A DNA stretch of 64,000 nt from Halobacteriales archaeon QH_7_66_36 (GTDB lineage Archaea > Halobacteriota > Halobacteria > Halobacteriales > Haloarculaceae), in NCBI GenBank assembly GCA_003021175.1, contig PXQV01000013.1, positions 44,738 to 108,737 of the forward strand, given 5' to 3'. Position 1 is the first letter of the stretch. The number at the start of each line of letters is the position of its first letter. Below the pieces are notes generated by a model. It ran no database searches. It was not told the DNA's origin and saw only the letters and a program-made list of their open reading frames with translations. Below, piece by piece: positions 9,731-45,994 of this stretch. The position numbers were made by a program, and so were the translations under genes.

Positions 9731-12700
9731 CTACATGAAATCCGAGATGCTTCCCTGTTTGTTCTTGTCGTTCTCGAAGACGGACTCCAACGATTTATCG
9801 AGGATTTTCAGCCGCTGTTTCGTGTACTGGCGACAGCCGTACTCCTCGGCGACGCGCGTTGCCACGTCCATGTACTTGTTCACCGACCCCTCGTGGACGG
9901 TGAGATTCACTTGGCCGCCACACTCCCGGCAGTCGCCGGTCAGCGGCATCCGGCGGTACTTCTCGCCGCAGTCGAGACACCGCGTCTCCTGTCGGGAGAA
10001 GGCGCGCAGGTTGCCGATGAGGTCCGGCAGGAAGTGGTACTCGATGACCCGCTCGGCCACGTCCGTCTCGTCGACGGCGCGGAGTTTCCGCGACAGTTCG
10101 AGCTGTGCGTCCATCTTGTCCATCATGCTGCCGAGCGTCTTGTACGCCGACAGGTCCGGCCCGAGCGCGATGTCGGTGGTGTCGTGAGTGTGCCGGAAGC
10201 CGGTGTACTCGCAGTCGGTGCCGAGCGTCTCCTCTGCGATCTGCACGTCGACCTCGCCGGGGTCGGCCATCTCGCGGGTCGCCTCGTAGAACTCGCGGGG
10301 ATACTGGGCCACGATGTCGATGTTGTGCGCCTCGTCGTCGATCTCCGAGGGGTCGATGCGCGAGGACATGACCAAGGGCGCGTCCATCGAGTTGTGTGCG
10401 TAGAGCCAGTTCGTGGTGAACACTGGGTCGCCACCGACCTGAAGATCGTAGAGATAGCCCTCGTAGTCGACGTGTTCGATGTCGGTGACACGGAGGTACG
10501 AGAGGTCTCCCGCGACGAGCGGGCGGAGTTCGTCGAGCCGGCTGCGGGCACCTTCCGGGAGGTCGCGTTGCTCGATCTCGGTGACCATTTCGTCGAGTTT
10601 TTCCAGCGAGACGTTGTCGCGGCGTTTGAGATACTTCGGGACGATCTGTTTGACATCCCGGATATCCATCTCGCGAAGCTCCATCAGCGCGTCGGGAATC
10701 CGAACAACGAGACTCTTCGGCAGATACGGCTCGTCACCGTCGAGCACGCGGTGAAGCGGGTTGTCCGAAGCGCCGCCCGAAGTCGTAACCGTGTATATCG
10801 GTTGTCGAGGCTCGTCCCGTTCGCGTCGAGAGACGTTCGCGACGATGCCGAACCGGTGCAGGAGGAAGACGATACCGTCCTTCACGTCCTCGCTGGTGGT
10901 GTGGAACGCGACTGTCGTGACGTTGTCGTCCGTCTGGTCGCTCCCGTCTCCGGCGACGAACCCGCGGAGGAAGGAACGCGCGACCTCGTCCGGGGCGCGA
11001 AGTATCGCGTCCGGAACCACCTTCTCGCTCGAATCGTACGAGTCCTCGTCGGCGAACCCGAGCCCGTACAGCACCTCACGAAACACCGCCGGGAACTGGA
11101 GTTCGTACGCCCGGTTCGACCACCGGATGTGTGGGTCGACGCCGAGCGATTCGCGCGTGATCTCCGCAGCCCGTTCGATGATAGCCTCGTCGGCGTTGCT
11201 GATTGCGGGACAGCTGCTGGATGTCGTCCCCTCCGCGACGAACAGTCCGAGCAGCCACGCGAACCCCTCGTCAACCTCGATGTGCCGCTGGACGCCGTTC
11301 GTCGACCCCCACAGCGCGATTTCGGCGCGTGGCGGAACCTCGAACTCCCCGTGCTGTAACACCTGCTCCAGCTGTTCGTACGGAATCTTGTTCTTAGAGA
11401 GCCGGTGTGAGAGACCGTTCTCGAACTCGGCGTGTGCCTCGCTTCCGTGGTCCGTGGACGCCCAGACAGTCCGGAGCAGATCTTCGACGTGGTCGTCGAT
11501 AGCGACGTACGGGTTCTCGACGAGTTCCGCCGCGTCGAGGATCGTCCGCTCAGTGTCGACCTGCAGCGAACGGGGTGCGAGTATTAGATCACCCTCCGAA
11601 AGTTCGTCACCGGCGACCTCTTTGATCCCGTCCTCGTACCGGAAGAGACTGTGGTTCGCCGTGATGTCGACCGAGCGTCCGAACTGGGTCGAAACCCGGA
11701 GGAGTTCCTCGTCGTCGGCCGCTCGGTAACGGATCGCCTTCTCGATTGGACGGGGAGCCGACTCGTGGTTCTCGTCGAACGCGTACGTTTCCCATCCCTC
11801 GGACAGACAGGTCCGTTTCTCGAACTTGCCGTTCCGCTCAACTGGACTCTCCAGTTCGTCCCAGAACTCCTCGAAGGTGAGGAATCGCGTTTCACCGTCG
11901 GGACCGAACGCAACCAGCCGGGAATCCTCCGCGACGCTACCCCCGCGCTGGTCCGGCAAGTACCCCTTCGAGAAGTTGAGCAGTCCGTCCATGAGCAACA
12001 TTACGCAATCTTCATCTCCATCGCATTGCTTAACTGACAAATCTCCTGCTACGAGTGAGTGCGTGTTTTCCACCTCTAAGCAGTACACGTAGTCCGTTTT
12101 CGACGCCACGTGCGAAACAGACTCGACCGAATCTGTCGAATAGTCGTCAGTACCGCCGTCGAACACGCGAGTGCCGCGCGGCGAGATGTCGTCGGTGTTG
12201 CTCGCGAGCGTCTCCTGTTTGCGCGACAGATGGAAGCCGACACGCTCGGCGAAACGAATAGTTGCGTCCGACGATACCGATAGGATATACGACGGTGCCG
12301 GCGTGGACTCGTCGCCGACATCGTAGTAATCGGGGAACTTTCGATGGAGCGGCTCGGCGTCGGTGCGTCGGACGTGCGTGTCGATGCCGAGGCGAGTCAG
12401 GAGCGCGACGAGGTCGTCACGGAGGTGTGGGCTCACCGTGGTCGCCCGGACGCTGAGCGAGCCGTCGCTGACCGTTCCGTCCCCGCTGAAGTAGCCCCGG
12501 AGATACGCCTCAACGACGTGATCCGGCGCGTCGAAGATACACTGTGGAACTCGTTTCGTGTGGGCCAGCACGCCCACATCTAACACGTCCTCGAAGAACG
12601 TCTGGAGCAGTCGCCCGGAGGCCGTCACCTTCGCGTGGTTCTCCTCGTAGGGGTCGACGCCGAACTCCTCGCGGAGCGTCGCGAGGAAGAAATCGCGCGC

Positions 12701-15700
12701 CTCCGTTTCGGTGCCGCATATCGTCGTCTGATGTATCGCTCCCTTCGGCGTCTCCTGTTCGCGGGCGAACCCCTCCGCCGCGTAGTAGCCGAGCAGCGTC
12801 GCAACCCGCTCGTTCAGGTCGACGAAGCGGTCGATTTCGGTACTGTCTCGCTTCATCCCGAGCGTGGCGTCCTCCGGAACGAAGGCGAGGAAATCGTCGG
12901 TGGACTCGAAGAAGCCGGCGAGCAGCGAGGCCGGGATACTCTCCCGGTAGAGGTAGTTGCTCAGTCGCTTCTTCGTCAGACCGAGATGGTCGGCGGTGCT
13001 CTGAAGCGGGTAGAACTGTCCGTCCCAGTCGTCGGCGAGCCGAGCGGTGAACAGGTCGTAGAGCGTCTCCTTCGCGAGCCCCTTGACCATCAGCCGGCTG
13101 TTCTCGACAGTGTCACTCCGAAAGAACTCCTCGAGCAGGTCGAAACGTTTCTCTTCGTCCGAGGACCGGACGCTGTCGAGATGGCGGGGGGTGGCGAGGT
13201 GGTCCGACTCGTCGAGCGCTCGCGCCTCCTTCGAGACGAGCCGGCCGAGTTGTGGGTCGTAAACGTGGAGTCGGTGGTCAGGGGTGACGGTGAGTTCCCG
13301 GCCCGAGGTCGTCCGGACACGCACCATGTGGTCGGGTGCCGGATGCTTGCTGAGTGCCTCGACGGGCTGAAGCGACTGGCTCCCGTTGTCGGCGAGCGAC
13401 GGCACGCGGAGCGTCCCGTCGAAGTCGTCGAGATCGTCAACGAGCGTTCCGAAGTCGTCGCGTTCCGCTCGGTCCTCGTTCATGTACCCCTCGACGAACG
13501 CCTCGATGGTCTCGTGGCGCGTCTCGCCCTCCGGGGTCTCGTACCACAGCTTCGTCTCGGGGTGGAAGCAGTTCCGGCGCTTCGCGGCGTGAAAGTACGG
13601 ATGCGCGTAGCCGACGGCCGCGCTCGTGAATCCGACCACGCGACCGACGACCGCGGCCGACGTGTGGGGTGCCATCCCGAAGACGAGTTCGCCGACGAGG
13701 TCCTCGCGGTCCGCCACCTCGTAGTACGGGTCCAGATCGTAGTAGCGTTCGAGCAGGTCGTCGACGTAGTCGGCGGTCCGAAGCATGTGCTCGGCCGCGC
13801 CGTCCGAGAGGACGACGTCCTGCACCTTCAGCTCGACCAGTTGGTCGTCGTGACGCAGCGGTGCGCCGTCGATGTCCGTCTCGTAGCCGAGTTCGCGGAG
13901 CGTGTCGGCGTCGATGTCGAGTTCGCGGGCCCGGACGGCGGTGACCGGGAGGTCGGTCATGTCGTAGCGGACGGTGCCGTCCTTGAACGCGCTCACGTCG
14001 TTCTTCGCGCGGAGAATTCCCTTCTCGATGGGTTCCGGGAGTTTGTGCGTCGAGGTGAGCCCTTTGACCCCCTTGAGGATGTCGTAGGAGCCGTCGCGCT
14101 CTCCGACGGCATCGAGCGCATCGCGGAGTTCGGTGTCGAGGTCGAGGGACCGCCGTTCGGTGGCGTACGCGGGCGTCTCACAGCGGGGACACTCCGCGCG
14201 GCCGGCCTCGTCGGAGTCTACCTCGCGCTCGCAGTCGGGGCAGACGTACCGCGGCTCCGTCCACGCGCCACACTCCCGACAGCGGCCGCGGAACGTCTCC
14301 TCGGCACAGTCCGGGCAGACGCGGCGCGCGACCTCGACCTCGACTTCGCCGGGGGTCGAGGAAACGTCGCGCTGGCGGGCGGCGGCGCTCACGTCGCGCT
14401 GGCTCCCGCCGGCCTCACCGAGGGGAAAGAGCGTGTGAACCGCAGGGGAGAGTTCGCGGCTCTCGGACTTCTCCGGGCGACCCATCCGGTTGCCGACGCG
14501 GGTGGGCGCGCGCTCTTGGAGGTCGAAGGAGGCCGTCTCGTTGACCGCGCGGTGGCTGTTCGCGCCGTCGTCCCACGTCCGGGCGTGCTCGGAGAGACGC
14601 TCCCACGTGCGTTCGAGGTCGACCGTGAAGCCGAGCGAGCGCACGAGCGGGACCGCGTCGGGGACGGTGACCGTCTCCTCGCCCTGCGTGTGCTGGACGG
14701 CGAGCGTCTCCAGCGCGTCTGTGACCGCGTCCGTCTCAGGAAGGACGAGCGTTCGGTCGCTCCCGGCGCTGGGCGGCGACTCGATGGCGGCACCGTCCGC
14801 CTCCGCGAACCGCCCGGACGAGGCGACGGCGTCGGCGAGCGCCTCGAAGCCGTCGACCGCGAGGTCGTGCCACAGGTATGTGTACTTCGGGTGGAGCGGC
14901 GCGTCGTACTCCTCGGCCCACGCCAGTGCCTCGTCTGCCGGGGGGTCGGCGAGGTCGACGGCGGGGTCGTCGCGCAGCGCCTGCACGTCAGCGCCCGCGG
15001 CCGCGAGGTCCTGTTCCCACCACTCGACGACGTAGGAGGCCGGCACGAGTTCGTGGTTGTTCTCGACGAACTCGCCGTAGTTGACGAGATACTCGCCCAA
15101 GTCGAGCACCTCGACGACGCCGTTGCGCACCTCGCGTGCCTCGTCGGGGTCGTCGATGCGACGAACGTCGCCGTTGGCGAGTTTCACCGTCGGGCCCTCG
15201 ATGGAGTCGACGGGGACGACGCCGGCGGCCTTCCCCGGACGCTCGGTCTTGATCTGGGTGCCCGTCGCGAGGAAGTCGTCGACGAGATGCATCGTCGCGG
15301 GGTGGACGCCGGCGGTCGCGTTCCCGTGGTTGCGCGCCCGACCGTACCGGAGTCGAAATCCGCCGGGTTCCGACGGGTGGCTGAACACCGGTCGCCCGGC
15401 GATGAGGTCGCGCAGGTACTTCTTCGACGAGTCGCCGCGAGGCGGGCCAGCGGCGTCGTCTGCGTCGTCCGGGTCGTCCGTCCCTGCGTCGCCGTCGGCC
15501 GACGAGTCGTCCGCGTCCTCGGTTTCTTCGTCGCCGTCGGTGTCGGCATCGGCGTAGGTACCGTCGATGAGGTCTTGGAGCCACGGCCACGCCACCTCGT
15601 CGAGATCGCGGGTGTACCGCTGTATCTTCGGGGCCTTCAGGGCGATCCCCTCGGCGAGGACGAGACACATCCCGCCGCGCGCCGAGTTGGTGTCGATCCG

Positions 15701-16384
15701 TTCGAGGTCGCGGAAGCCGGACACCTCCTCGTCGCCCGTCGCCTCGCCGTCCAGCATGATCGGCATGTGTTCGACGATGAACTTCGTCTCCTTCGCCTTC
15801 GGCGTGTACTGGAGGCCGGTCTCCGAATCGTACAGCGCCACTTCCTCCGCGTAGCGCTCTATCTCGTCGTTGCGCGGTCGGTAGCCCTCGATGCCGAGCA
15901 GGGCGCGGGCGTAGTCGGCGACGAGCACGGACAGCGCCTGTGCGGTGCCGCCCGCAGAGCGGATCGGCCCGGCGTAGTAGACGTTGACGAACTCCGTGCC
16001 GTCGTCGTTTTCGAGGAGTTCGACGCGGTCGATACCCTCGATCGGGGCCGCGACCACCCCTTCGGTGAGCAGCGCGACGGCCGTCCGGACTGCGCCCTCT
16101 ATCTTGCCGGCCCGGGAGTCGTAGTCGCCGACCGTCCCCGCGACGAAGTCGGTGACGAGTTCGAGCGCGGCCTCCTCGCGGGACATCTCGCCTTCGAGTT
16201 CGCGGACCCGCTCTGCGACCCCGTCGATGCCCAGAATGTTCTCGACGCGGTCGGCCATGTCCTTCGCGACGGGTATCTCCACCTCCGGTTTCGGATCCTC
16301 GCCCCGCTCCTTCGCCGTCTCGGCCACGTCGAAGGCGCGGTCGAGTTGGGTCTCCAGCCGCTCGAAGTACCGTTCCGAGTCCAT
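9731..16384 (-). CDS. polC: DNA polymerase II (PolD) large subunit DP2, with two inteins
   Basis: Catalytic large subunit of the archaeal family D replicative polymerase. The precursor is 2217 residues. Removing inteins at residues 939-1453 and 1483-1998 leaves a 1186-residue mature subunit, normal for haloarchaea. The first intein interrupts AKRRN/CDGDED and the second interrupts LPDQRGG/SMDAPLV, both in the conserved catalytic core that contains the DGDED metal-binding acids. A 29-residue extein separates them, so both must splice for activity. The N-terminal extein has an acidic low-complexity insertion (about 280-320) and a cysteine-rich region (CPDC, CRECG). The C-terminal extein has a further CLDC/CRECG zinc motif. 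The start codon overlaps the stop of the PPC-domain gene by one base. The small subunit DP1 is not in the window. Confidence 0.96.
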   Translation of the reverse strand: MDSERYFERLETQLDRAFDVAETAKERGEDPKPEVEIPVAKDMADRVENILGIDGVAERVRELEGEMSREEAALELVTDFVAGTVGDYDSRAGKIEGAVRTAVALLTEGVVAAPIEGIDRVELLENDDGTEFVNVYYAGPIRSAGGTAQALSVLVADYARALLGIEGYRPRNDEIERYAEEVALYDSETGLQYTPKAKETKFIVEHMPIMLDGEATGDEEVSGFRDLERIDTNSARGGMCLVLAEGIALKAPKIQRYTRDLDEVAWPWLQDLIDGTYADADTDGDEETEDADDSSADGDAGTDDPDDADDAAGPPRGDSSKKYLRDLIAGRPVFSHPSEPGGFRLRYGRARNHGNATAGVHPATMHLVDDFLATGTQIKTERPGKAAGVVPVDSIEGPTVKLANGDVRRIDDPDEAREVRNGVVEVLDLGEYLVNYGEFVENNHELVPASYVVEWWEQDLAAAGADVQALRDDPAVDLADPPADEALAWAEEYDAPLHPKYTYLWHDLAVDGFEALADAVASSGRFAEADGAAIESPPSAGSDRTLVLPETDAVTDALETLAVQHTQGEETVTVPDAVPLVRSLGFTVDLERTWERLSEHARTWDDGANSHRAVNETASFDLQERAPTRVGNRMGRPEKSESRELSPAVHTLFPLGEAGGSQRDVSAAARQRDVSSTPGEVEVEVARRVCPDCAEETFRGRCRECGAWTEPRYVCPDCEREVDSDEAGRAECPRCETPAYATERRSLDLDTELRDALDAVGERDGSYDILKGVKGLTSTHKLPEPIEKGILRAKNDVSAFKDGTVRYDMTDLPVTAVRARELDIDADTLRELGYETDIDGAPLRHDDQLVELKVQDVVLSDGAAEHMLRTADYVDDLLERYYDLDPYYEVADREDLVGELVFGMAPHTSAAVVGRVVGFTSAAVGYAHPYFHAAKRRNCFHPETKLWYETPEGETRHETIEAFVEGYMNEDRAERDDFGTLVDDLDDFDGTLRVPSLADNGSQSLQPVEALSKHPAPDHMVRVRTTSGRELTVTPDHRLHVYDPQLGRLVSKEARALDESDHLATPRHLDSVRSSDEEKRFDLLEEFFRSDTVENSRLMVKGLAKETLYDLFTARLADDWDGQFYPLQSTADHLGLTKKRLSNYLYRESIPASLLAGFFESTDDFLAFVPEDATLGMKRDSTEIDRFVDLNERVATLLGYYAAEGFAREQETPKGAIHQTTICGTETEARDFFLATLREEFGVDPYEENHAKVTASGRLLQTFFEDVLDVGVLAHTKRVPQCIFDAPDHVVEAYLRGYFSGDGTVSDGSLSVRATTVSPHLRDDLVALLTRLGIDTHVRRTDAEPLHRKFPDYYDVGDESTPAPSYILSVSSDATIRFAERVGFHLSRKQETLASNTDDISPRGTRVFDGGTDDYSTDSVESVSHVASKTDYVYCLEVENTHSLVAGDLSVKQCDGDEDCVMLLMDGLLNFSKGYLPDQRGGSVAEDSRLVAFGPDGETRFLTFEEFWDELESPVERNGKFEKRTCLSEGWETYAFDENHESAPRPIEKAIRYRAADDEELLRVSTQFGRSVDITANHSLFRYEDGIKEVAGDELSEGDLILAPRSLQVDTERTILDAAELVENPYVAIDDHVEDLLRTVWASTDHGSEAHAEFENGLSHRLSKNKIPYEQLEQVLQHGEFEVPPRAEIALWGSTNGVQRHIEVDEGFAWLLGLFVAEGTTSSSCPAISNADEAIIERAAEITRESLGVDPHIRWSNRAYELQFPAVFREVLYGLGFADEDSYDSSEKVVPDAILRAPDEVARSFLRGFVAGDGSDQTDDNVTTVAFHTTSEDVKDGIVFLLHRFGIVANVSRRERDEPRQPIYTVTTSGGASDNPLHRVLDGDEPYLPKSLVVRIPDALMELREMDIRDVKQIVPKYLKRRDNVSLEKLDEMVTEIEQRDLPEGARSRLDELRPLVAGDLSYLRVTDIEHVDYEGYLYDLQVGGDPVFTTNWLYAHNSMDAPLVMSSRIDPSEIDDEAHNIDIVAQYPREFYEATREMADPGEVDVQIAEETLGTDCEYTGFRHTHDTTDIALGPDLSAYKTLGSMMDKMDAQLELSRKLRAVDETDVAERVIEYHFLPDLIGNLRAFSRQETRCLDCGEKYRRMPLTGDCRECGGQVNLTVHEGSVNKYMDVATRVAEEYGCRQYTKQRLKILDKSLESVFENDKNKQGSISDFM
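10391..11938 (-). mobile_element. PolC intein 2 (516 aa, LAGLIDADG, Ser1)
   Basis: The intein begins with Ser (SVAEDSRLVAFGPDG) instead of Cys, has block B FGRSVDITANHSLFRY, LAGLIDADG helices LLGLFVAEG and FLRGFVAGDG, and ends YDLQVGGDPVFTTNWLYAHN followed by Ser+1. The splice nucleophiles are therefore Ser/Ser. It sits only 29 codons after intein 1, so two independent elements occupy the same catalytic region. Both LAGLIDADG acids are present. Confidence 0.92.
12026..13570 (-). mobile_element. PolC intein 1 (515 aa, LAGLIDADG, C-terminal Gln)
   Basis: The intein begins with Cys (CFHPETKLWYE, block A) and has block B-like TSGRELTVTPDHRLHV. It carries two LAGLIDADG helices, LLGYYAAEG and YLRGYFSGDG, with acidic active-site residues kept. 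It ends HSLVAGDLSVKQ before Cys+1. The terminal residue is Gln instead of the usual Asn. The insertion site is the same one used by the Pyrococcus PolII intein, which is known to splice with a C-terminal Gln. The endonuclease looks intact, so homing may still be possible. Confidence 0.92.
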
Positions 16385-16918: not shown

Positions 16919-18547
16919 TCAGTTGTCGAACCGGGCCTGTACGAACGGCTGTGCGTCCTCGACTTCGCCGATGCGCGAGTCCGAGAGGAGCACCGCCTCC
17001 GTCTCCTCGATCGGAACGGAGAGGCTGATCTCCTTGGTGCGGCCGTAGCGACCCTTGGAGACGACGACGGCGTTGACGATGCCGAGCATGTCGAGCTCCG
17101 AGATGAGGTCGGTCACCCGACGCTGCGTGAGCACGTCGGCGTCTATCTCCTCGCAGAGCCGCTTGTAGATGTTGAACACCTCGCCGGTGTTGATGTTGTG
17201 GACGCCGTTCTTCTCCAGCAGGATGGTCGCGTACAGGACGAGCTTCGACTGCGTCGGGAGCGTCCGGACCACCTCGACCACCCGGTCGAGTTCGATCTTC
17301 TCCTGCCCCTTGCGGACGTGGTCCTCGTTGACCTCGTCCGTGTGGTCGCGCTCGGCGAGTTCGCCCGCGGTGCGCAGCAGGTCGAGCGCGCGCCGGGCGT
17401 CCCCGTGTTCCTGTGCGGCGAAGGCCGCACACAGCGGTATCACGTCCTCGTTGAGCGAATCCGACTTGAACGCGACCTCGGAGCGCTGCTGGAGGATGTC
17501 GCGCAGCTGCGTGGCGTCGTACGGCGGGAACACGATCTCCTCCTCGCCGAGCGAGGATTTGACGCGAGGGTCGAGGAAGTCGGTGAACTTCAGGTCGTTC
17601 GAGATGCCCATTATCGACACCCGGGAGTTGTCCAGCTCGGAGTTCATCCGCGAGAGGTTGTAGAGCGTGTCGTCGCCGCTCTTCTCGACGAGCTTGTCGA
17701 TCTCGTCGAGCATGATGACGACGACCCGCTCGTGGTAGTCGACGGCGTCGAAGAACGTCTGATAGACGCGGTCGGTCGGCCACCCGGTCATCGGCGCGGG
17801 TTCGAACTCCTCGCGGTCAGTCTCCAGCTCCTCGATCCGGTCGTCGAGTTCCTCGACGCTCGCGAACGGGCCTTCGCCTTCCGGGTCGCTGTCTGCGAGG
17901 ACTGTTTCGGCGGCAGCGTCGGTCGCACGCTCGCGGAGGTCGGCCAGCGCGTCGAGTTTCCGGTCGATGACGGCCTCGTTCTTCTCGATGAACTTGTTCG
18001 CGAGCTGTGCGAGCACGCGATACTGCGTGTCCGTCACCTCGCAGTTGATGTACTGGACCTCGCAGGGCACCTCGTACTTCTGTGAGGTGTTCTCCAGTTC
18101 CTCGGAGACGAACTTCGCGCTCGCAGTCTTGCCGGTGCCGGTCTTGCCGTAGATGAGGATGTTGGAGGGGGTGTCCCCGCGGAGCGCAGTGACGAGGATG
18201 GTCGCCATGTTGTTGATCTGCTCCTCGCGGTGCGGGAGTTTGTGGGGGGTGTAGGAGGGACGGAGCACCTCCTTGTTCTCGAAGATCGGGTCGCCTTCGA
18301 GGAGGTCGTCGAAGAGTCCACGAGAGGCCTCGTCGGGGTCGTCGGTCTCGTCGAGGACGATGTCGTCCAGATCGAGACCCGTGTTGTCGAATCCGTCCGG
18401 CGGACCGTCGCTCGGCCGGCCGTGGTCGGTGCCGTCGAGATAGGAGACACCGTCGGCCTCGACGTCGATGTCGTCGGCCGAAGCCTCGGCTCCCTCGCCG
18501 GTGCTGTCGCCCCGTTTCGTTCCGTCGTCGGCGTCGTGGTCGGTCAT
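16919..18547 (-). CDS. orc1: Orc1/Cdc6 replication initiator
   Basis: AAA+ origin-binding initiator, 542 residues from the ATG at 18547. An acidic N terminus of about 100 residues precedes the AAA+ core with Walker A IYGKTGTGKTAS and Walker B-type VVIMLDEIDKL, sensor 1 SIMGISNDLKF, then a C-terminal winged-helix domain (about 440-542) for ORB binding. The frame stays open upstream to 18688, but those residues are basic and atypical and would overlap the ORB at 18561, so the shorter form is preferred. It is transcribed away from the adjacent origin, the usual arrangement for oriC1 in haloarchaea. The acidic insertion between the AAA+ motifs (EDGEGPFAS-like region) is a halophilic expansion. 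Confidence 0.94.
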   Translation of the reverse strand: MTDHDADDGTKRGDSTGEGAEASADDIDVEADGVSYLDGTDHGRPSDGPPDGFDNTGLDLDDIVLDETDDPDEASRGLFDDLLEGDPIFENKEVLRPSYTPHKLPHREEQINNMATILVTALRGDTPSNILIYGKTGTGKTASAKFVSEELENTSQKYEVPCEVQYINCEVTDTQYRVLAQLANKFIEKNEAVIDRKLDALADLRERATDAAAETVLADSDPEGEGPFASVEELDDRIEELETDREEFEPAPMTGWPTDRVYQTFFDAVDYHERVVVIMLDEIDKLVEKSGDDTLYNLSRMNSELDNSRVSIMGISNDLKFTDFLDPRVKSSLGEEEIVFPPYDATQLRDILQQRSEVAFKSDSLNEDVIPLCAAFAAQEHGDARRALDLLRTAGELAERDHTDEVNEDHVRKGQEKIELDRVVEVVRTLPTQSKLVLYATILLEKNGVHNINTGEVFNIYKRLCEEIDADVLTQRRVTDLISELDMLGIVNAVVVSKGRYGRTKEISLSVPIEETEAVLLSDSRIGEVEDAQPFVQARFDN

Positions 18548-18560
18548 ATCGCCATCTGCT

Positions 18561-18584
18561 ACCCCTTCGTTTCGAGTGGAACAC
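18561..18584 (-). promoter_or_regulatory. ORB element next to the orc1 start
   Basis: Minus-strand sequence GTGTTCCACTCGAAACG then AAGGGGT. It matches the ORB core TTCCA-N3-GAAAC followed by a G run. It lies 14 bases upstream of the orc1 ATG and just inside a TATA-like GATATACAC at 18597-18605, so Orc1 binding here could also repress its own gene (inference). Confidence 0.75.
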
Positions 18585-19113
18585 CGGAGCGCAGCCGTGT
18601 ATATCCCCGTTACACCGGGAAAGACCGGTGGTGTCGTCGATCGGGCTGGATCGGTGCGTCCAGATGATGCAAACGAACCGGAGGTCACACCGGCTATTAA
18701 ACATTCCGATGAACCGGAAAGTATCTCGCAAAGCGGTGTCGATCGTCACTGCCGCCGACCGATTGATCGAGATTGGTAGACGATCGCATGCCGAAGCGAC
18801 GAACCGTGAGACGCGTCCGAGACAGCCGAGTTCGGGGTAGCCGATCGTTCTGCTGGGATCGAATCGTTGCTCGACTCGGGGTCGGGTCTACCACACGGCG
18901 GCTCCGTATCTACCTCACGCGAGAATCAGGCGACGATCAAGAGCGAATTGAAGAGACAAGAATCGACAATAGACTAGAGGTGAAACGGAGAATACTAGAC
19001 TAACCCTAGAGGTACTAGTATTGCTGCTCGGGTACTAGTAGTCTCTCCAGCTCGTCGCCGCTCCGGCCGTCGGTCGTCTCCCACACTCGTTGAGAGTGCC
19101 GTTCACGTTCTGA

Positions 19114-19143
19114 CACCCCCACCCCTTTGTTTCGACTGGAAAC
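19114..19143 (-). promoter_or_regulatory. ORB element with long G run
   Basis: Minus-strand CGTTTCCAGTCGAAACAA followed by AGGGGTGGGGGT. This is the complete haloarchaeal ORB with a G-string. It is inverted relative to the element at 19370-19400, and the pair brackets about 230 bp. Confidence 0.85.
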
Positions 19144-19369: not shown

Positions 19370-19400
19370 CGTTCCAATTGAAACGAAGGGGTGGGGGTAT
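19370..19400 (+). promoter_or_regulatory. ORB element with long G run
   Basis: Plus-strand CGTTCCAATTGAAACGAA followed by GGGGTGGGGGTAT. Near-identical 3' half to the 19114-19143 element, in inverted orientation. Confidence 0.85.
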
Positions 19401-19742
19401 GCTTCACATCGACGCTGGCACTCGTCTGTGCCGCATTTCCTTTCATGTCCGGCCTCCCACTGCCGACGCCCCGGCTTCTCTCTTCCTTCGTCAGCCACAC
19501 GTCTGCGCTGCGTCAGCCATGCGACAGCCGCACGTCTGCTGTTCGCTCGGCGTTCTTCGCTGCTGATATGTTCTCTCGTCGCATCGTCGCTACGCTTGAC
19601 GGCTACGTGCACGTCCGTGCGATGGAGCACAGACACCGATTTCGACTATCGACCCGACGCCCGACGACTTGTCTGCAACCGGAAATATGTCTGACACAGT
19701 CTTAAGTAGACACGGGAAGGTGATACGTGCAGAGCGGCCCGA

Positions 19743-19774: not shown

Positions 19775-21034
19775 ATGGGACTACTCACAGAAATCAGGTC
19801 GAGCATATCTGGCCTGTTCGCCGGGTCCGAGCCGAAGCGCATCGGCATCTACGGCCCGCCGAACGCCGGCAAGTGCCTGCACCCCGACGAGAAAGTACTG
19901 TTGGCGGACGGCACACACGAGCGCATCGAAGACGTGTTCGAAGCCGTTCGCGAGAGCATGGACGACCCGGTCGATGTCAGCGATGAACCACACGAATCGT
20001 GGATCGAGAGTGATGGGACCGTGGCGGTTCCCGCGCTCGTCGACGACCTCTCCGTGGCGTCGCAATCGGTCTCACACGTCTTCCGACAGGCGTACGACGG
20101 TCCGATGTACCGGGTTCGGACGAGGCTGGGTCGCGAGGTGACGGTCAGCCCCGAACACCCGTTCATTTCTCCGACCGACGACGGAATCGATGCGATTCCC
20201 GCTGACGAAGTGACTACTGGTACCCAAGTCGTGGTTCTCTCCCCGTCCACTTCACCCACGCTAGACCAGCCACTTGCTGACCCGAATATCGCGTCCGACG
20301 GTGGAATCACTGCCGGAAAATCGATGTCCAACTCGGTCTCCCCACGAGAGGACGCGCAGTTGGTTTATGATTACGCCAGCGCGGACGTGGCGTGGGACGA
20401 AGTCGTCGAAATCGAACGCGTCGACTACGACGGCTACATCTACGACCTCACCGTTCCCGACCACCACACGTTCGCGACCGCGGACGGGCTCGTCGTTCAC
20501 AACACGACCCTCGCAAACCGTATCGCCCGCGACTGGACCGGCGACGCCGTCGGCCCCGAGAGCCACGTCCCCCACGAGACTCGCCGCGCCCGTCGCAAGG
20601 AGAACGTCGAGATCAAACGCAACGGCAACTCCGTCAGCATCGACATCGTCGACACGCCGGGCGTGGCGACGAAGGTCGACTACGAGGAGTTCCTCGAACA
20701 CGATATCGAGAAGGAGGACGCGGTGCGTCGCTCCCGCGAGGCGACCGAAGGGGTGGCCGAGGCGATGCACTGGCTCCGCGAGGACGTCGAGGGCGTCATC
20801 TACGTGCTCGACGCCACCACGGACCCGTTCACGCAGGTGAACACGATGCTGATCGGCATCATCGAGAGCCAAGACCTGCCGGCGCTCATTCTCGCGAACA
20901 AGACGGATCTCGAGGATGCGTCGGTACAGCGTGTCTCGAACGCGTTCCCCCAACACGAGACCATCCCGCTGTCGGCGCTGGAAGGTGACAACATGGACGA
21001 AGTGTACGACAAAATCGCGGAGTACTTCGGGTGA
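19775..21034 (+). CDS. oapA: Origin-associated Era-like GTPase OapA/ArvA, intein in P-loop
   Basis: Small GTPase of the origin-linked oapABC cluster. The same family was recently named ArvA for driving extracellular vesicle formation in Haloferax (recalled knowledge). The precursor is 419 residues and 209 after removal of the intein (residues 34-243). The G1 motif GPPNAGK/TT is split by the intein between Lys33 and Thr244, so the unspliced protein cannot bind GTP. Other G motifs are DTPG (G3) and NKTD (G4). The start MGLLTEIRSS at 19775 is preferred; the frame is open upstream to 19727, but those residues lie over the ORB core. oapB follows after 3 bases. Confidence 0.93.
   Translation: MGLLTEIRSSISGLFAGSEPKRIGIYGPPNAGKCLHPDEKVLLADGTHERIEDVFEAVRESMDDPVDVSDEPHESWIESDGTVAVPALVDDLSVASQSVSHVFRQAYDGPMYRVRTRLGREVTVSPEHPFISPTDDGIDAIPADEVTTGTQVVVLSPSTSPTLDQPLADPNIASDGGITAGKSMSNSVSPREDAQLVYDYASADVAWDEVVEIERVDYDGYIYDLTVPDHHTFATADGLVVHNTTLANRIARDWTGDAVGPESHVPHETRRARRKENVEIKRNGNSVSIDIVDTPGVATKVDYEEFLEHDIEKEDAVRRSREATEGVAEAMHWLREDVEGVIYVLDATTDPFTQVNTMLIGIIESQDLPALILANKTDLEDASVQRVSNAFPQHETIPLSALEGDNMDEVYDKIAEYFG
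19874..20503 (+). mobile_element. OapA intein (210 aa, no endonuclease)
   Basis: Starts Cys (CLHPDEKVLLADG, block A), block B is GREVTVSPEHPFIS with the Thr and His of the splicing site, and it ends VDYDGYIYDLTVP...HHTFATADGLVVHN before Thr+1. No LAGLIDADG or HNH motif occurs. About 60 residues of low-complexity, Ser/Asp-rich sequence (near SPSTSPTLDQPLADPN) sit where an endonuclease would be, suggesting a deleted one. This is a mini-intein that cannot home on its own. Confidence 0.93.
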
Positions 21035-21037
21035 ACG

Positions 21038-21427
21038 ATGCCTGAGACACAACATCCCGAGGACGACGGCGTGCAGATCGACCTCATCAGTGCCGACCGC
21101 ATCAACGGCCTCCGGACGATGGAGAAGGTCCGGCTCATCCTCGACAGCGTTCACGACGGAAACATCGTCATCCTCGAACAGGGACTCGACCCCTCCGAGG
21201 AGTCGAAGCTCATCGAGGTGACGATGTCCGAGATCTCGCCCGACGGCTTCACCGGCATCGAGATCGAGACCTACCCGACCGAGACCGCGGCCCCCGACCC
21301 CGGACTGCTGGGCAAACTCATGGGCAACACCCCGAAGGGGAAGCTCACCGTCATCGGTCCCGCGAACCGCATCGAGACGCTCCACAAGGACGAGAATCTC
21401 ATCAGCACGCTGGTCCACGAGGCGTAG
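21038..21427 (+). CDS. oapB: Origin-associated protein OapB/ArvB (DUF2073)
   Basis: 129 residues, the DUF2073 family always found between oapA and oapC. Conserved look: IDLISADRINGLRTMEKVRLILDSVHDGNIVILEQGLDPSEE, then a GFTGIEIETYP strand and GKLTVIGPANRIETLHKDEN near the end. Function not established biochemically. Genetic and context links place it with the GTPase and with the replication origin. It starts 3 bases after oapA and ends 6 bases before oapC, so it is one operon. Confidence 0.92.
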   Translation: MPETQHPEDDGVQIDLISADRINGLRTMEKVRLILDSVHDGNIVILEQGLDPSEESKLIEVTMSEISPDGFTGIEIETYPTETAAPDPGLLGKLMGNTPKGKLTVIGPANRIETLHKDENLISTLVHEA

Positions 21428-21433
21428 CCACGG

Positions 21434-22525
21434 ATGCCACACCAGTGTACCGGCTGTGGCTACACGTTCGCCGACGGCTCGAAGGAGATGCTCGGCGGCT
21501 GTCCGGACTGCGGGGGGAACAAGTTCCAGTTCCACCCGGACGGCGCGGACCTCCCCGACGAGCCGCCCGACGACGCGACCCCGCCGGAGCCAGAGACGGA
21601 CCCCGGCAACGCCGCCTCGACGGTCGGCCGCGCGGCGACGAAGGTCCGTGACTTCGTCTCCGGCAGCGACCCGAGCCCCAATCCGGAGCCGGCATCTGAT
21701 TCGGTATCCGCTCGCGACACGACAGCTGCCCCGGACTCGGCATCCACACCCGACACAACCCCTACCACGGACTCGACATCGGGTCCCACCGACACTCCCG
21801 AGACCGAGGCTACTACAGACGCGGACCCCGACCCCAACCCCCAAACGGCCCCAGACTCCGACGAACCGGCCGACGCCTCGACCGCACCCGAACCGTCCTC
21901 CGACTCGGCCCCCAGCGACGGGTCGACCCCCTCTGTCTCGGTCGGCGACGTTCCCGACCCGGACGCGCCGTGGCCGGAAGCAGAGGACGGCGATTCCAAC
22001 GATGCCTCCGACGACGCGCTCCCGACCGACGGCGACGACATCATCGACGCCGACGCCCACGCGACCGAGGAAGCGCTACAGGACGCCGAGAACCACGCAC
22101 AGGCACAGGCTCGGACCGATATCGTGAGCGAGGACGCGATCCCCGACGCCCCCGACGACGGTGACGATCCCGACGACGACCCCAGTGTCGCCGACCCAGC
22201 GGACGCCGAAACTGCTGTCCAGACCGACGACGGTGCGACCACCGCCGACGACCCTGAGTCGGTCGAGGGTCCCACGTCCACCGGCCCGCCCGACGCCGAC
22301 GGCCGCGTCGTCTCCGAGCCGAGCAACGAGGAGGCGGACATCGACGAGCTCCGCGAGCAGCTCAACGACCAGTTCGAGTCGATCAAGATCGTCGAACCGG
22401 GCCAGTACGAGCTGAACCTGATGGAACTGTACGACCGCGACGAGTACATCATCGCGTTACAGGAGAACGGTCGGTACGTGATCCAGATGCCCGAACAGTG
22501 GATCGGCGACGAAGACGTGGCGTAG
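21434..22525 (+). CDS. oapC: Origin-associated zinc-ribbon protein OapC/ArvC
   Basis: 363 residues. The N-terminal zinc ribbon is HQCTGCGYTF...GGCPDCGGNKFQF (residues 3-35). A long, very acidic, Pro/Ser/Thr/Asp-rich disordered region (about 45-285) follows. The C-terminal conserved domain is DIDELREQLNDQFESIKIVEPGQYELNLMELYDRDEYIIALQENGRYVIQMP. The last 75 residues are the part shared by family members, while the linker varies. It completes the oapABC operon. The linker's amino acid bias is of halophilic low-complexity type, not a translocation signal. Confidence 0.9.
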   Translation: MPHQCTGCGYTFADGSKEMLGGCPDCGGNKFQFHPDGADLPDEPPDDATPPEPETDPGNAASTVGRAATKVRDFVSGSDPSPNPEPASDSVSARDTTAAPDSASTPDTTPTTDSTSGPTDTPETEATTDADPDPNPQTAPDSDEPADASTAPEPSSDSAPSDGSTPSVSVGDVPDPDAPWPEAEDGDSNDASDDALPTDGDDIIDADAHATEEALQDAENHAQAQARTDIVSEDAIPDAPDDGDDPDDDPSVADPADAETAVQTDDGATTADDPESVEGPTSTGPPDADGRVVSEPSNEEADIDELREQLNDQFESIKIVEPGQYELNLMELYDRDEYIIALQENGRYVIQMPEQWIGDEDVA

Positions 22526-40488: not shown

Positions 40489-43400
40489 CTACTCCTCGTC
40501 GTCGAGGGCGAGCGACGCCAACAGCGCCTCTAACTGCACCTGCTCGTTCGCGCCGGCCGTGATCCGGTAATCCGCCTCGCCGACCCGGTCCATCAGCCGG
40601 ACGGCCGCACGGTCCGGAATGTCGAACTCCCAGACGGAGCGGTGGAGCTGGTCGATGATGTCGCCCCCGGCGATGCCGACTTCGGTCAGCAGGTGGTCGA
40701 GCCGCGAGCGCGCCTGCGTGAAGTCGCCCTCCAGCGCGAGGTCGACCATCTCCTTGATCTCCTCCGGGCGGGCCGTCGACGTGATGGCGAAGACGGCCTC
40801 CTCGTCGACGGTGTCGCCCATGACGGCCGCGGCCTGCAGCCCGTTGATCGCCTTCCGCATGTCGCCGTCGGCCGCGTACACGAGCGCGTCGACGCCGTCG
40901 TCGGTCACCTCGATCCCCTCCGTCTCGGCGATTTCCCGCACCTGTGCGGCCACCGCCTCGTCCGCGAGTGGCGAGAAGCGGAAGACGGCACACCGCGACT
41001 GGATGGGATCGATGATCTGACTGGAGTAGTTACACGAGAGGACGAATCGCGTGTTGTTCGAGAACTGCTCCATCGTCCGGCGGAGCGCCCCCTGCGCGTC
41101 GGAAGTATTGTGTGTAAGTATTCCGTTCGCGAGCATGAAGTTCGGCGTGCCTTCCATGCTGATATTGTACGCTCTCCCGCGGTGGCTGTACTCGATGTGA
41201 CGTACTTCCACGGTTTCGACTCTCCGCAGCCCTCCATCTGATACGAGCGCAGGTTCGAACTCGTTCCTGTCGTAGTGTTCGTCGTGGGGAAGCGCGTCGT
41301 CCCCGACGACGACGTACTCGTATTCGTCGCCGTACCGTTGCAAGAACTCCTCGACCTTCTCGATCCGTCCCCACAGTTCAACGACGCCCTTTACCTCGAC
41401 TATCGTATCATCTATCTGGAAGTCCGGGTAGTACGTCGAGTCAGATAGCTCAAACGCCGGCTCGTACTCGTACTCGACTCCAGCGTCCTGTAGTGCATCG
41501 GCAACTTCGTATTCCCAACTCGACCGGACACGGTGCCCGAGCTCGTCACAATAATCGACATCCGGCCAGTATGGTTCGTGACCTTTCAGTGCCTCTGAAA
41601 CCTTCCGGGCGACTTCGGGATCACGCATCGGGTCGTTATCCCCAGTAATATCGTGGACGGGATAGTCCGTGTTGCGAACTCTCTTCCGTTCGAGTCTCTC
41701 CTTTTCCTCCTCGTTCAACTCGTCCCACCACTCGGCACAGGAACGGGCGATTTCGGTCTTCGTTTTCTCCGGGTCGGCGTTGACGACCCACTCCTCCCAC
41801 GGCGTCCCCGAACGCACCTCGCTCAACGCTTCTTTCCACTCTTCGATCGTCTCCTTATCCATCTCCGTAGCGTGAACGCCGTGGAAGTCACCTCCGTGGT
41901 TCGGGTTGTTCTCACCCGCAAACCTCCCGTCAGAGAGTTTATTGACAATCTTTTCGCGCCGCTTCTCGGACCATTCCGTCCCGTGCATCGGGTTCCCTTG
42001 ACCCTGCATATCACGGCTGTGGCCCTTGCCCTTACAGCTAACCGAACAGAACCGCCCGGCCGTCCAATCCTCACAGACCTCGCAACGCGAGACGCCCACG
42101 TCGTCTCTGAAATCGGCGATTTCGTCCCCCGGCGATAGTTCCCGGAGCTCCTTCTCGACGAGTTTCCCGTCATCTCCGACGACGAAGAATGGGTGGGTGA
42201 GGCTCGCAACTGTCGTCCTCCCGTCGGCTAATTCGAGTTCGAAGAAGTCGGCGACGCCAGAATCGACGAGTTTGCCCTTGTCGGACTGTATCTCGTTCGT
42301 CTCGAAGTCGACGGATGGGATCGGTTCGCCGTCTTCGTGTACCTCCTCTATCGGCTTCACTTCCGGCGACGACGGATACCCGGCAATGACTTCGGTCCCT
42401 GGAGGCACGCAGAGCGCGTCCGCCTCGTCGAGGAAGATGACCCGGTAGTCGTAGCCGCCGAAGGAGGAGCGCGCGAAGCTCTTGATGCGGTCGCGCACCA
42501 CGTCGATCCCCCGCTCGTCGCTGGCGTTGAGTTCGAGGAAGTTCTCCCGCCAGTCCTCGCCGTACAGCTCCTTGGCGATGGCCGAGGCCGCGGTCGTGTT
42601 GTGCATCACCGTCGGGACATCTCCGGCGACGTAGTTTCGCGTCTCCGGTACGGTGAGGTCGTAGACCCGGCGTGACTCGTCGACGACCTCGACGGATTCG
42701 ACCGTGTCGAAGTAGAGGTCCGACTCCACCAGCGTGTGAAGGGTGGTGAGCGCCCCGAGAACGTCCTCCGACAGCATCTCGACTGCTATCGACTGGATTC
42801 GGTCGGCAACGGTCCGGAACTTCGGCAGCGATTCGAGGTCGTTCCCGCCTTCGAGCAGGCTGATGACTTCGGTGCCGCGCATCGCTGTCCCGTCCGCGAC
42901 GCGGTTGTACGACACGCCGAGTTGCTCGATGCTGTCCCCGAGGGTCGTTCGCACGCGGTCGAGGTCGACCTCGGTCGACCCGTCGAGCGTGTCCATGATC
43001 GCTACTGCCCGGTCGCTTTCGGGCGTTCGCCGCCCGTCGGCGTACTCGAGCAGCCGATCGGCGCGGACCCCGATATCCGCTTCGAGGTCCTTCCGCGTCT
43101 CGATGGGCGCTAACGCTTCCCGCTGTGTCACCCACGTCGCTGGAACCCCGGCCGCGGCGGTGAGATCCGCACTCAGCCTGTCTAACCGTTCGAGAACCTC
43201 CTGTGCGGTATCGAGCCTCGCCGATGCCGCGTCCAACAGCTCGTCGAGAGCCCCGAGATACGCCTCTCGCCCCGGACTGTCAGGGTTCAGCGTCTCGGGA
43301 ACGTACTCCGACTTCGTCAGATAGAGCGCTTCGGATAGTGTGTCGACCGCGCTTTGTGCCGGTATCGTGTCGTTGTTCGGATTCGGGGGCTTGTCGGCGT

Positions 43401-44874
43401 TCGCCGCGAGCCGCTCTGCTTTCGTCTCGAGCGCGAATCCGACCCGCTTTTCGAACTGGCGGAGATGTCTGGCGCTGGAAACGTACAGTGTGTGATACTC
43501 CCGCTTCGTCCCCGAGCCGTTCGTCGCGGCCTTCCGGACTCGCTTCCGCCGGCTCGGGATGCCGAACCCCGAGAGGAGATACGAAACGAGGGTGACGAGC
43601 TCCTCGTTCTTCTGCGTGAGTTCGATAATCCCCTGTTCGGTCACGTGCCCCTCCGCGTCGAACACGGCCTGCAGGAACGCGCGCCGGCTCTCGTCGTCCC
43701 CGAGGAGTAGCTTCGACCCGATGCCGCTCCCGTCGGTCGCCCCGTCGAACACATCGAAGCACGATTCGACGAGATGCGTCAGGGTGCGATTCCCGAGTTC
43801 CCGATACGGGACGCCCTGCTGTTCGCCGTGACGGACATCGGCGTCGAATACCGTCTCCGCGGCGGTCTCGAACTCGTCGAGTAGCCGCTCGTCGGTGTTG
43901 TAGAACTTCACTCGCCCGCCGCGCAGGTGTGCCTCGCTCACGGCTAGCCCGACGAACCGCGCCAACTCCGGCGTGAGTTCCCACGGAGGCGTAATCGGCT
44001 CCGAACGCCTGTTGTTTCGAGCGACGTATTGAATCGAACCGACGTGGCGTTTCAGTTCGTCTCGGGAGATTTCGAGCGTTCGGAGAAACGACAACGAGCA
44101 GGTCGTGCTCGTGGCTTCGAGGTTACGGTCGAGGGTCCGACGGTACTCTCGGACCACCTTGGCGGTCGTGTCTGCCGCCGCGGCGATGTCCGTGACCGCC
44201 TCGCCTCGCCTGAGCCCGGCGACGACGCGCTTCTTCTTCCCGACGTAGTTCTGTTCGATCGGTATTTCGTGTTCCTCGGCGAACGACTCCGAGACGTGGA
44301 CGAAGGTCCGGTCTCCATCCATCGAGCCGACCCAGTCGAGCCGACTGTCGCCATCCGGGAGCGGTATCGTATGCGGACGGACGACGCGCGTGCCGGCGTC
44401 CATGTCGCCAGCAGGAACCCATTCGAGCCCGTCTTCGTCGACGGTCAGGAGCTCGTGTTCCGGTGTCAGAACGGACTCGTTGCCGTCGCGCGTCGTCACC
44501 CGGACCAGTTCCTCCGCTTCCTTTCCGAAGACGTGTGACGGTTCGACGTACTCGAACGAGCTATCGCCGTCGAACGTCAGCACTTCCAACCCGTCCTCCG
44601 GCGCTTCGAACCCGTCGGCGTCCCCGACGACCGACCCTATCTGCTCGATACCGTCGCTGGTCACGACCGGCGTGTCCCCTGTTACACACTTCCCCACGCC
44701 CGCCGGGCCGGCGAACATGAGGTGGGGAAGATCGTTTCGCTCGACGTAGCTCGTCAGCCGCTCGATGATGTCGCCGTGGCCCTTCACGTCCGCGAGCGAC
44801 TCCGGGCGGTACTTCTCGATCCAGACCTCGCGCCCGCGAGCGCTCGCGGCGTCGTCCTCGGCGGCCTCGCTCAT
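40489..44874 (-). CDS. rfcS: Replication factor C small subunit, with two inteins
   Basis: Canonical clamp-loader small subunit. The precursor of 1461 residues loses inteins at residues 63-759 and 822-1256, leaving 329 residues, the normal length. Walker A is GPAGVGK/TT (split by the first intein between Lys62 and Thr760) and Walker B is LDEADAL (the second intein follows it at /TSDAQG). The arginine-finger SRC occurs in QSRCAVF and the helical C-terminal domain ends ALDDEE. Both ATP-site motifs are therefore disrupted until splicing is complete. TATA-like GGTTTAT at 44901-44907 lies 28 bases before the ATG, giving a leaderless transcript. The reading frame is open upstream to 45075, but that part overlaps the next gene's end. 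Confidence 0.96.
41107..42411 (-). mobile_element. RfcS intein b after Walker B (435 aa, PD-(D/E)XK with NUMOD3)
   Basis: Begins [15 protein letters not shown], block B is [13 protein letters not shown], and ends HRGRAYNIS...[12 protein letters not shown] before Thr+1. Between them lies a four-cysteine zinc finger (CEVC...FCSVSC), then NUMOD3-like repeats ([48 protein letters not shown]), then a PD-(D/E)XK-like core ([28 protein letters not shown]). There is no LAGLIDADG. Base composition is visibly lower in GC than the neighbours, a sign of recent transfer. Confidence 0.9.
42598..44688 (-). mobile_element. RfcS intein a in the Walker A motif (697 aa, LAGLIDADG)
   Basis: Begins [13 protein letters not shown], block B is [15 protein letters not shown], and ends RRVYDLTVP...[11 protein letters not shown] before Thr+1. 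Degenerate LAGLIDADG helices are [11 protein letters not shown] and [12 protein letters not shown]; both retain an acidic residue. It is unusually long; about 250 further residues of helical, acidic sequence lie between the endonuclease and the C-terminal splicing block, with no motif I recognise. Whether the endonuclease still cuts is uncertain. Confidence 0.92.
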
Positions 44875-44900
44875 GATCGGAGAGTCGCGCCCGCTCGGCA

Positions 44901-44907
44901 TAAACCC
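44901..44907 (-). promoter_or_regulatory. TATA box of rfcS
   Basis: Minus-strand GGTTTAT centred about 28 bases before the rfcS ATG. Confidence 0.55.
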
Positions 44908-44992
44908 CGCGAGAACGCGCCGCGGTATGGATCTCGTCGGCCCGAGCGCCGGGCCTTCGAATCGGTCGGCGCCGTCGACGACGGGTGGATAC

Positions 44993-45994
44993 TTACACGG
45001 TGGTATCGACGAGTTCGAACGCCGTGCCCACGTCGTTTGCCCGTGCCTGCTCGTAGACGACGTGTGCGGCGGCAACGTCTTGGATGGCGAGACCCGTCGA
45101 GTCGAAGACGGTGACGCCGTCCGGGCCGCCGGCTTCCCCGCGGCCGGCCAACTCGTCGGTGACGATTGCGCCGAGTTCGCCGTAGATGTCCTCGTCCGTC
45201 AGCAGTCCCTGCGACCACGGGACGTTGATCTCGCCGGAGTGGGTACACTGCTCGTAGTCGTCGATGACGATGGTGGCGGACTCCAGCAGTTTGTCGTCGA
45301 TTTCGTGTTTGCCGGGCGCGTCGGCCCCCATCGCGTTGATGTGGGTGTGATCGCGGACGGCGTCTGCGGGGACGAGCGGGTGCTCGACCGGCGTGACGGT
45401 CGAGAGGACATCACAGCCGGCGGCCGCCGCGGGGTCCCCCGAGCGCACGTCGAACCCGTCGCCGAAGCGGTCGGTGAACCGCTGGATCGCCTCCGCTCGC
45501 TTGTCGCTGACGACGACCGTCTCGATGTCGCGCACCGTGCTAATCGCCTCCAGTTGCGTGTACGACTGCACGCCAGCGCCGATGATGCCGAGCGACGAGG
45601 CGTCGGCGACCGCGAGATGGTCAGTGGCGACGGCGGCGGCCGCGCCCGTCCGCTTGCGCGTCAGCGTCGTCCCGTCCATGATGGCGAGCGGGAAGGCGTT
45701 CTCCGGTTCTGAGTAGATCATCGTCCCGAGAACGGTCGGTAGGCTGTGTTCGTCGGGGTTGTCGGGGTGGACGTTCACCCACTTGATGCCCGCGGCGTCC
45801 CAGTCGTCTGCCTCCATGTACGCCGGCATCGAGCGGAAGTCGCCGTTGTACTGCGGCAGGTCGATGTACGACTTCGCGGGCATCTGCACGTCGCCGCGCT
45901 GGTAGGCGGCGAACGCTTCCTCGACGGCCACGATGACCTCCGGCGTCTCCGCGCCCTCGGCCACGTCCGATGGACCCAACAGGAGCGTCTCCAT
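44993..45994 (-). CDS. Ornithine cyclodeaminase / alanine dehydrogenase family protein
   Basis: 333 residues from [14 protein letters not shown]. The family's N-terminal substrate part has [23 protein letters not shown] and [25 protein letters not shown], with the Lys and Asp near [17 protein letters not shown]; the Rossmann domain is [17 protein letters not shown]. Members are NAD(P)-dependent amino-acid dehydrogenases or cyclodeaminases (including archaeal alanine dehydrogenase) and mu-crystallin homologues. Which reaction cannot be decided. A frame extension to 46033 exists, but the inner ATG matches the family start. Confidence 0.9.

Follow-up and report, generated by a model that had tools for sequence, protein, structure and literature searches.

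A probable splicing-competent mini-intein in the P-loop of the haloarchaeal vesiculation GTPase OapA (ArvA)

The oapA gene of Halobacteriales archaeon QH_7_66_36 carries an in-frame intein, devoid of an endonuclease domain, between the codons for the lysine and threonine of the GTPase P-loop. We interpret this element, with a probability of roughly 0.88, as a functional, immobile class 1 mini-intein that splices to leave a normal GTPase and represents the final stage reached by a homing intein after invading oapA at this point. Inteins have mostly been reported in proteins of DNA and nucleotide metabolism. The one described here resides in a small GTPase that functions in making vesicles and that the laboratory model Haloferax volcanii can do without. 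The insertion site documents the homing cycle with unusual completeness, including a natural endonuclease deletion between near-identical alleles.

Host gene and genomic setting

The DNA analysed (hereafter ‘the window’) is a stretch of 64,000 nt from contig PXQV01000013.1 (assembly GCA_003021175.1, positions 44,738–108,737, forward strand), and all coordinates are positions within it (Table 1). The host gene is oapA, the small-GTPase gene of the oapABC operon, which lies next to orc1. This assignment follows from the extein match to MMR_HSR1 (E=4e-13 for the joined extein), from the OapB and OapC genes that come next, and from the divergent Orc1/Cdc6 gene upstream. With the intein removed in silico, the frame, which yields a precursor of 419 amino acids (aa), encodes a GTPase of 209 aa, and the extein junction of the spliced product, as predicted from the frame, reads IYGPPNAGKTTLANR; the predicted junction peptide of spliced OapA in genus g12 is GPPNAGKTTLANR. 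The preliminary description of this DNA had raised the prospect of a second, intein-free oapA elsewhere in the genome; no second oapA copy was found in the 2.6-Mb assembly (96.7% complete, 18 contigs).

Table 1. Coding features and intein segments of the oapA region (window positions)
Feature	Position	Strand	Remarks
OapA precursor ORF with intein	19775 (ATG)–21034	+	Single uninterrupted frame: MGLLTEIRSS...GPPNAGK / CLHPDEK...GLVVHN / TTLANR...
N-extein of OapA/ArvA, 33 aa, ending ...IYGPPNAGK	19775–19873	+	Alternative GTG start at 19727
Mini-intein, class 1, 210 aa	19874–20503 (630 nt)	+	Cys1, Ser-x-x-His block B, Asp191/His198 block F, His209-Asn210
N-terminal splicing segment, about residues 1–123	19874–20242	+	NCBIfam intein_Nterm
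Endonuclease remnant/linker, about residues 124–168	20243–20377	+	Predicted disordered at 126–164
C-terminal splicing segment, about residues 169–210, ending GLVVHN	20378–20503	+	NCBIfam intein_Cterm
C-extein of OapA/ArvA, TTLANRIARDWTG..., +1 residue being the P-loop Thr	20504–21034	+	MMR_HSR1
oapB/arvB	21038–21427	+	Pfam OapB, E=3.3e-40
oapC/arvC	21434–22525	+	Pfam OapC, E=2.8e-25
orc1/cdc6, far side of presumed origin region, divergent upstream of oapA	16919–18688	-	Pfam Cdc6_C, Cdc6_lid

The orc1–oapA intergenic region contains a 27-nt inverted repeat (19115–19141 and 19372–19398; 89% complementarity, 230 nt apart), possibly a pair of origin-recognition boxes. The genome as a whole is rich in inteins, with 21 splicing-domain matches in 2.6 Mb, in about ten genes. 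Two inteins with endonuclease domains lie in the window's gene for the DNA polymerase II large subunit DP2 (9731–16384, minus strand), and two more in that for the small subunit of replication factor C (RFC; 40489–45075, minus strand), the first of which has a LAGLIDADG domain and occupies the same P-loop point (GPAGVGK/C...HN/TT). Ectopic transfer from these DP2 or RFC inteins was considered as a source of the oapA insertion and rejected, the local identity being only about 30–43% over the main matches.

Intein anatomy

The intein ends exactly where the preliminary description had placed it, splitting GPPNAGK/TT, and it matches the Pfam Intein_splicing profile (PF14890) over its entire length (E=1.9e-24; 86.7 bits against a cut-off of 35.8). 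The NCBIfam models intein_Nterm and intein_Cterm both score above their cut-offs. Class 1 membership is indicated by Cys1 as the position-1 nucleophile (present in 18/18 inteins at this site), by the block B motif Ser92-Pro-Glu-His95, and by a C-terminal His209-Asn210 followed by Thr. All seven catalytic residues (C1, S92, H95, D191, H198, H209, and N210), as well as the Thr that follows, are invariant across the 18 same-site inteins.

Class 1 splicing chemistry uses a Cys, Ser, or Thr at position +1 as a nucleophile. Because the +1 residue here is the P-loop threonine itself, splicing would be scarless, and loss of this nucleophile would destroy the GTPase.

An AlphaFold2 model of the intein (pLDDT mostly >90 outside the linker, <50 at residues 126–164) has the HINT splicing fold, and in a Foldseek search of the PDB the leading matches were all inteins, headed by the Pyrococcus horikoshii (Pho) RadA intein (E=3.5e-12). 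The model of the full precursor has a mean pLDDT of 58, too poor for judging contacts between intein and exteins.

A Pfam scan returned no endonuclease domain (LAGLIDADG or HNH) for the window copy, although same-site relatives carry one, and the element is classed as a mini-intein on that basis. The preliminary description, which had already recognized that the splicing blocks are kept and the endonuclease missing, spoke of a low-complexity linker in its place. The replacement is real; the wording needs amending, since the linker is what erosion has left of the endonuclease insert: its DGG is conserved, and its C-terminal tail can be aligned with full-length relatives.

A second Cys, in a W-x-x-C motif, is conserved in 17 of the 18 oapA inteins, and Ser46 takes its place in the window copy alone (codon 20009–20011). 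This exception counts against our main reading. One mini-intein retains the second Cys with no other Cys besides C1, and in the relatives this residue is a candidate redox partner for Cys1.

Same-site relatives and endonuclease loss

The preliminary description suggested looking for the same insertion in other haloarchaea, and it does recur: among 391 Halobacteria genomes surveyed, 14 have an intein at this point of oapA. In the window's own family, 13/146 assemblies are occupied, two of which share one allele. These inteins fall into three length groups (466–482 aa, 275 aa, and 183–213 aa). The full-length forms have about 270 additional aa, with LAGLIDADG_3, at the position of the linker (E=1e-21 to 1e-26 in the three that were scanned, L096, L102, and L160), and in the partly eroded 275-aa form the endonuclease insert is gone but for its C-terminal part. 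All stages of the homing cycle are seen at this site within one archaeal class: empty, full-length, partly eroded, and mini. The oapA insertions are alleles of one mobile intein family.

Two genomes of one genus, G381 and G427, have splicing halves that are identical at the protein level, with five nucleotide differences, and the G427 intein differs from that of G381 by a clean, in-frame deletion of 801 bp that removes the endonuclease. Their exteins differ at 20/645 positions. The intein DNA of this pair (L099/L152) differs by 0.8%, compared with 3.1% in the exteins of the same gene, and the pair suggests a recent exchange of the intein or of a segment between genomes.

The endonuclease was lost at least three times, in separate events: the intein tree calls for three or more transitions between forms with a full endonuclease and forms lacking one, and the window's deletion has other boundaries than that of G427. 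Endonuclease-free or eroded forms occupy the site in all seven assemblies of genus g12 (six distinct alleles), and none of these has a full endonuclease. In the window's genus, only the window's own genome is occupied, of six. A search for the intein outside Halobacteria with the DNA pattern GPPN(A/S/T)GKC, which misses other spellings of the P-loop, gave two matches in 393 genomes of the phylum, both in Halobacteria. No match was obtained in plasmids for the oapA precursor or in phages for the intein.

An intein-free sister allele

A sister genome has an intein-free oapA allele, L009, that encodes a protein identical to the window's joined extein in spite of 14 nucleotide differences in the gene. 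Around the insertion site the two match perfectly over 165 bp upstream and 10 bp downstream, and identity stays at about 97% onward through oapA–oapB. Relative to L009, the difference may reflect either a recent gain of the intein or a recent loss: identity is high on both flanks of the site, and the nearest intein found shares only 62% identity with the window's over the splicing columns.

The existence of so similar an empty allele, in combination with a draft genome of 18 contigs, might suggest that the intein-bearing stretch was brought in from another organism during assembly or binning. We regard such an artefact as highly improbable: the junctions lie well inside the contig, the flanks match L009 as described above, and 13 other genomes of the class have the same insertion.

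Selection and splicing competence

Ratios of dN/dS were calculated by the Nei–Gojobori method (NG86) on pairs of mini-intein alleles, with dS near saturation in several pairs, so that single ratios are rough. They range over 0.09–0.23 for the N-terminal splicing segment, 0.06–0.21 for the C-terminal splicing segment, 0.15–1.07 for the linker (the value of 0.15 coming from one pair over 21 codons), and 0.01–0.13 for the exteins. The splicing segments are under purifying selection and the linker is less constrained. This pattern is consistent with an element that has to splice, and is the best indirect support for splicing.

The window intein looks fully able to splice. Splicing competence is supported indirectly, by the presence of all the catalytic residues together with purifying selection and the intein fold. 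One could argue instead that the intein is decaying and no longer splices, leaving oapA effectively inactive in the window's lineage; the gene is dispensable in H. volcanii, where its deletion mutant is viable and grows slightly faster (PMC10927574), and Ser46 is unique to the window copy. We consider this account decidedly unlikely, given that every catalytic residue is kept, that there is no stop or frameshift within the intein-bearing oapA, and that the splicing segments bear the mark of purifying selection. Moreover, the GTPase is still constrained, since the extein protein is identical to that of L009 in spite of the DNA differences.

Under the preferred reading, that of a functional mini-intein, the host would make a precursor without a competent nucleotide-binding loop. 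The preliminary description held that the unspliced protein cannot bind GTP, and the anatomy agrees, inasmuch as the P-loop Lys and Thr are 210 residues apart in the precursor. Cys1 would attack the Lys33 carbonyl, the chain would be handed to the P-loop Thr as the +1 nucleophile, and cyclization of Asn210 would release the normal 209-aa GTPase. The ancestor carried a LAGLIDADG endonuclease, such as that seen in same-site relatives; this domain was then deleted in the window's lineage and, independently, in others. Purifying selection suggests that OapA is needed in nature, which would explain why the splicing halves were retained.

Vesiculation and the case for conditional splicing

The link between OapA and extracellular vesicles made in the preliminary description is borne out by the literature: OapA of H. 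volcanii (HVO_3014) is a vesiculating GTPase that was named ArvA by Mills et al. (PMC10927574). Deletion mutants form about threefold fewer vesicles and none associated with RNA, and vesicle yield changes with ArvA dosage (PMC10927574). The proposed role at the origin operon fares less well, as no replication function could be assigned to OapA in H. volcanii and, as noted above, the deletion is tolerated (PMC10927574).

It has been suggested that splicing could act as a switch, in which OapA stays inactive and matures only on a signal from salt, temperature, redox, GTP, or the binding of a membrane or partner, so that vesiculation is controlled. The P-loop is indeed not intact in unspliced OapA, vesicle yield responds to ArvA dosage (PMC10927574), and endonuclease-free forms are retained throughout genus g12. 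Furthermore, the closest relative of solved structure, the Pho RadA intein, is a P-loop mini-intein that splices in a temperature- and ssDNA-dependent manner, and there the response is governed by the loop in which the endonuclease used to lie (PMC5790916). We nevertheless consider conditional splicing unlikely. The presence of the intein is patchy, both in the class and in the window's genus, so that regulation is not a general requirement; no other part of the element is conserved as poorly as the linker; the obvious redox candidate, the second Cys, is missing from the window copy, where no sequence feature pointing to dependence on a cue was seen; and a mini-intein would be kept by purifying selection in any gene that is needed. 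The narrower proposal, that splicing is conditional where an endonuclease-free OapA intein has become fixed, gating the GTPase and thus controlling vesicle production in some haloarchaea, we regard as quite unlikely. The case for a vesiculation switch draws on analogy with RadA; if it held, protein splicing would regulate the remodelling of a membrane. Most simply, the oapA intein would splice constitutively. Splicing alone and regulation can be told apart directly in H. volcanii, for which a ΔoapA strain and a vesicle assay are available.

Comparison with known systems

The preliminary description suggested that this insertion site may be new, and its novelty is to be divided: the host gene appears to be new, whereas the position of the insertion is already known. 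No report of an oapA intein, or of OapA/ArvA with inteins, was found in the literature searched, whose coverage was partial, so that novelty is not proven; the word ‘intein’ does not occur in PMC10927574. In a 2014 survey of 118 haloarchaeal genomes, Soucy et al. listed 24 alleles in 13 genes, with oapA absent, and those alleles likewise occur in the large, mini, and empty states of a homing cycle (PMC4071816). The Lys/Thr junction of the P-loop is a ‘classic’ intein insertion (PMC5050341), and TerL1-a, DnaB, and the RFC small subunit, including that of the window, have inteins at the same Walker A position, their hosts being ATPases of DNA metabolism or packaging.

An intein in a GTPase P-loop is likewise not new, because the profile of archaeal IF-2 (InfB/aIF5B; NCBIfam NF011418) carries one at the same junctions, starting right after the P-loop GK and ending before TT. 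The alignment of this profile to the OapA precursor is colinear through the two junctions. The window's genome has an intein-free IF-2, which aligns to the profile only from the position after the intein. IF-2 differs in being another host protein and in having a profile intein of about 450 aa, and the similarity of the profile to the OapA intein, only 55 bits, does not exceed that of other alleles.

The closest parallel is the RadA mini-intein of P. horikoshii and Thermococcus sibiricus, which like that of OapA is free of an endonuclease, is inserted in the P-loop of an NTPase, and has a variable region in the former place of the endonuclease (PMC5790916). The two differ in that the RadA host is a DNA recombinase ATPase rather than a vesicle GTPase, and the inteins are about 21% identical. 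Conditional splicing has been shown for RadA (PMC5790916), whereas the OapA intein is known here from its sequence and a structural model.
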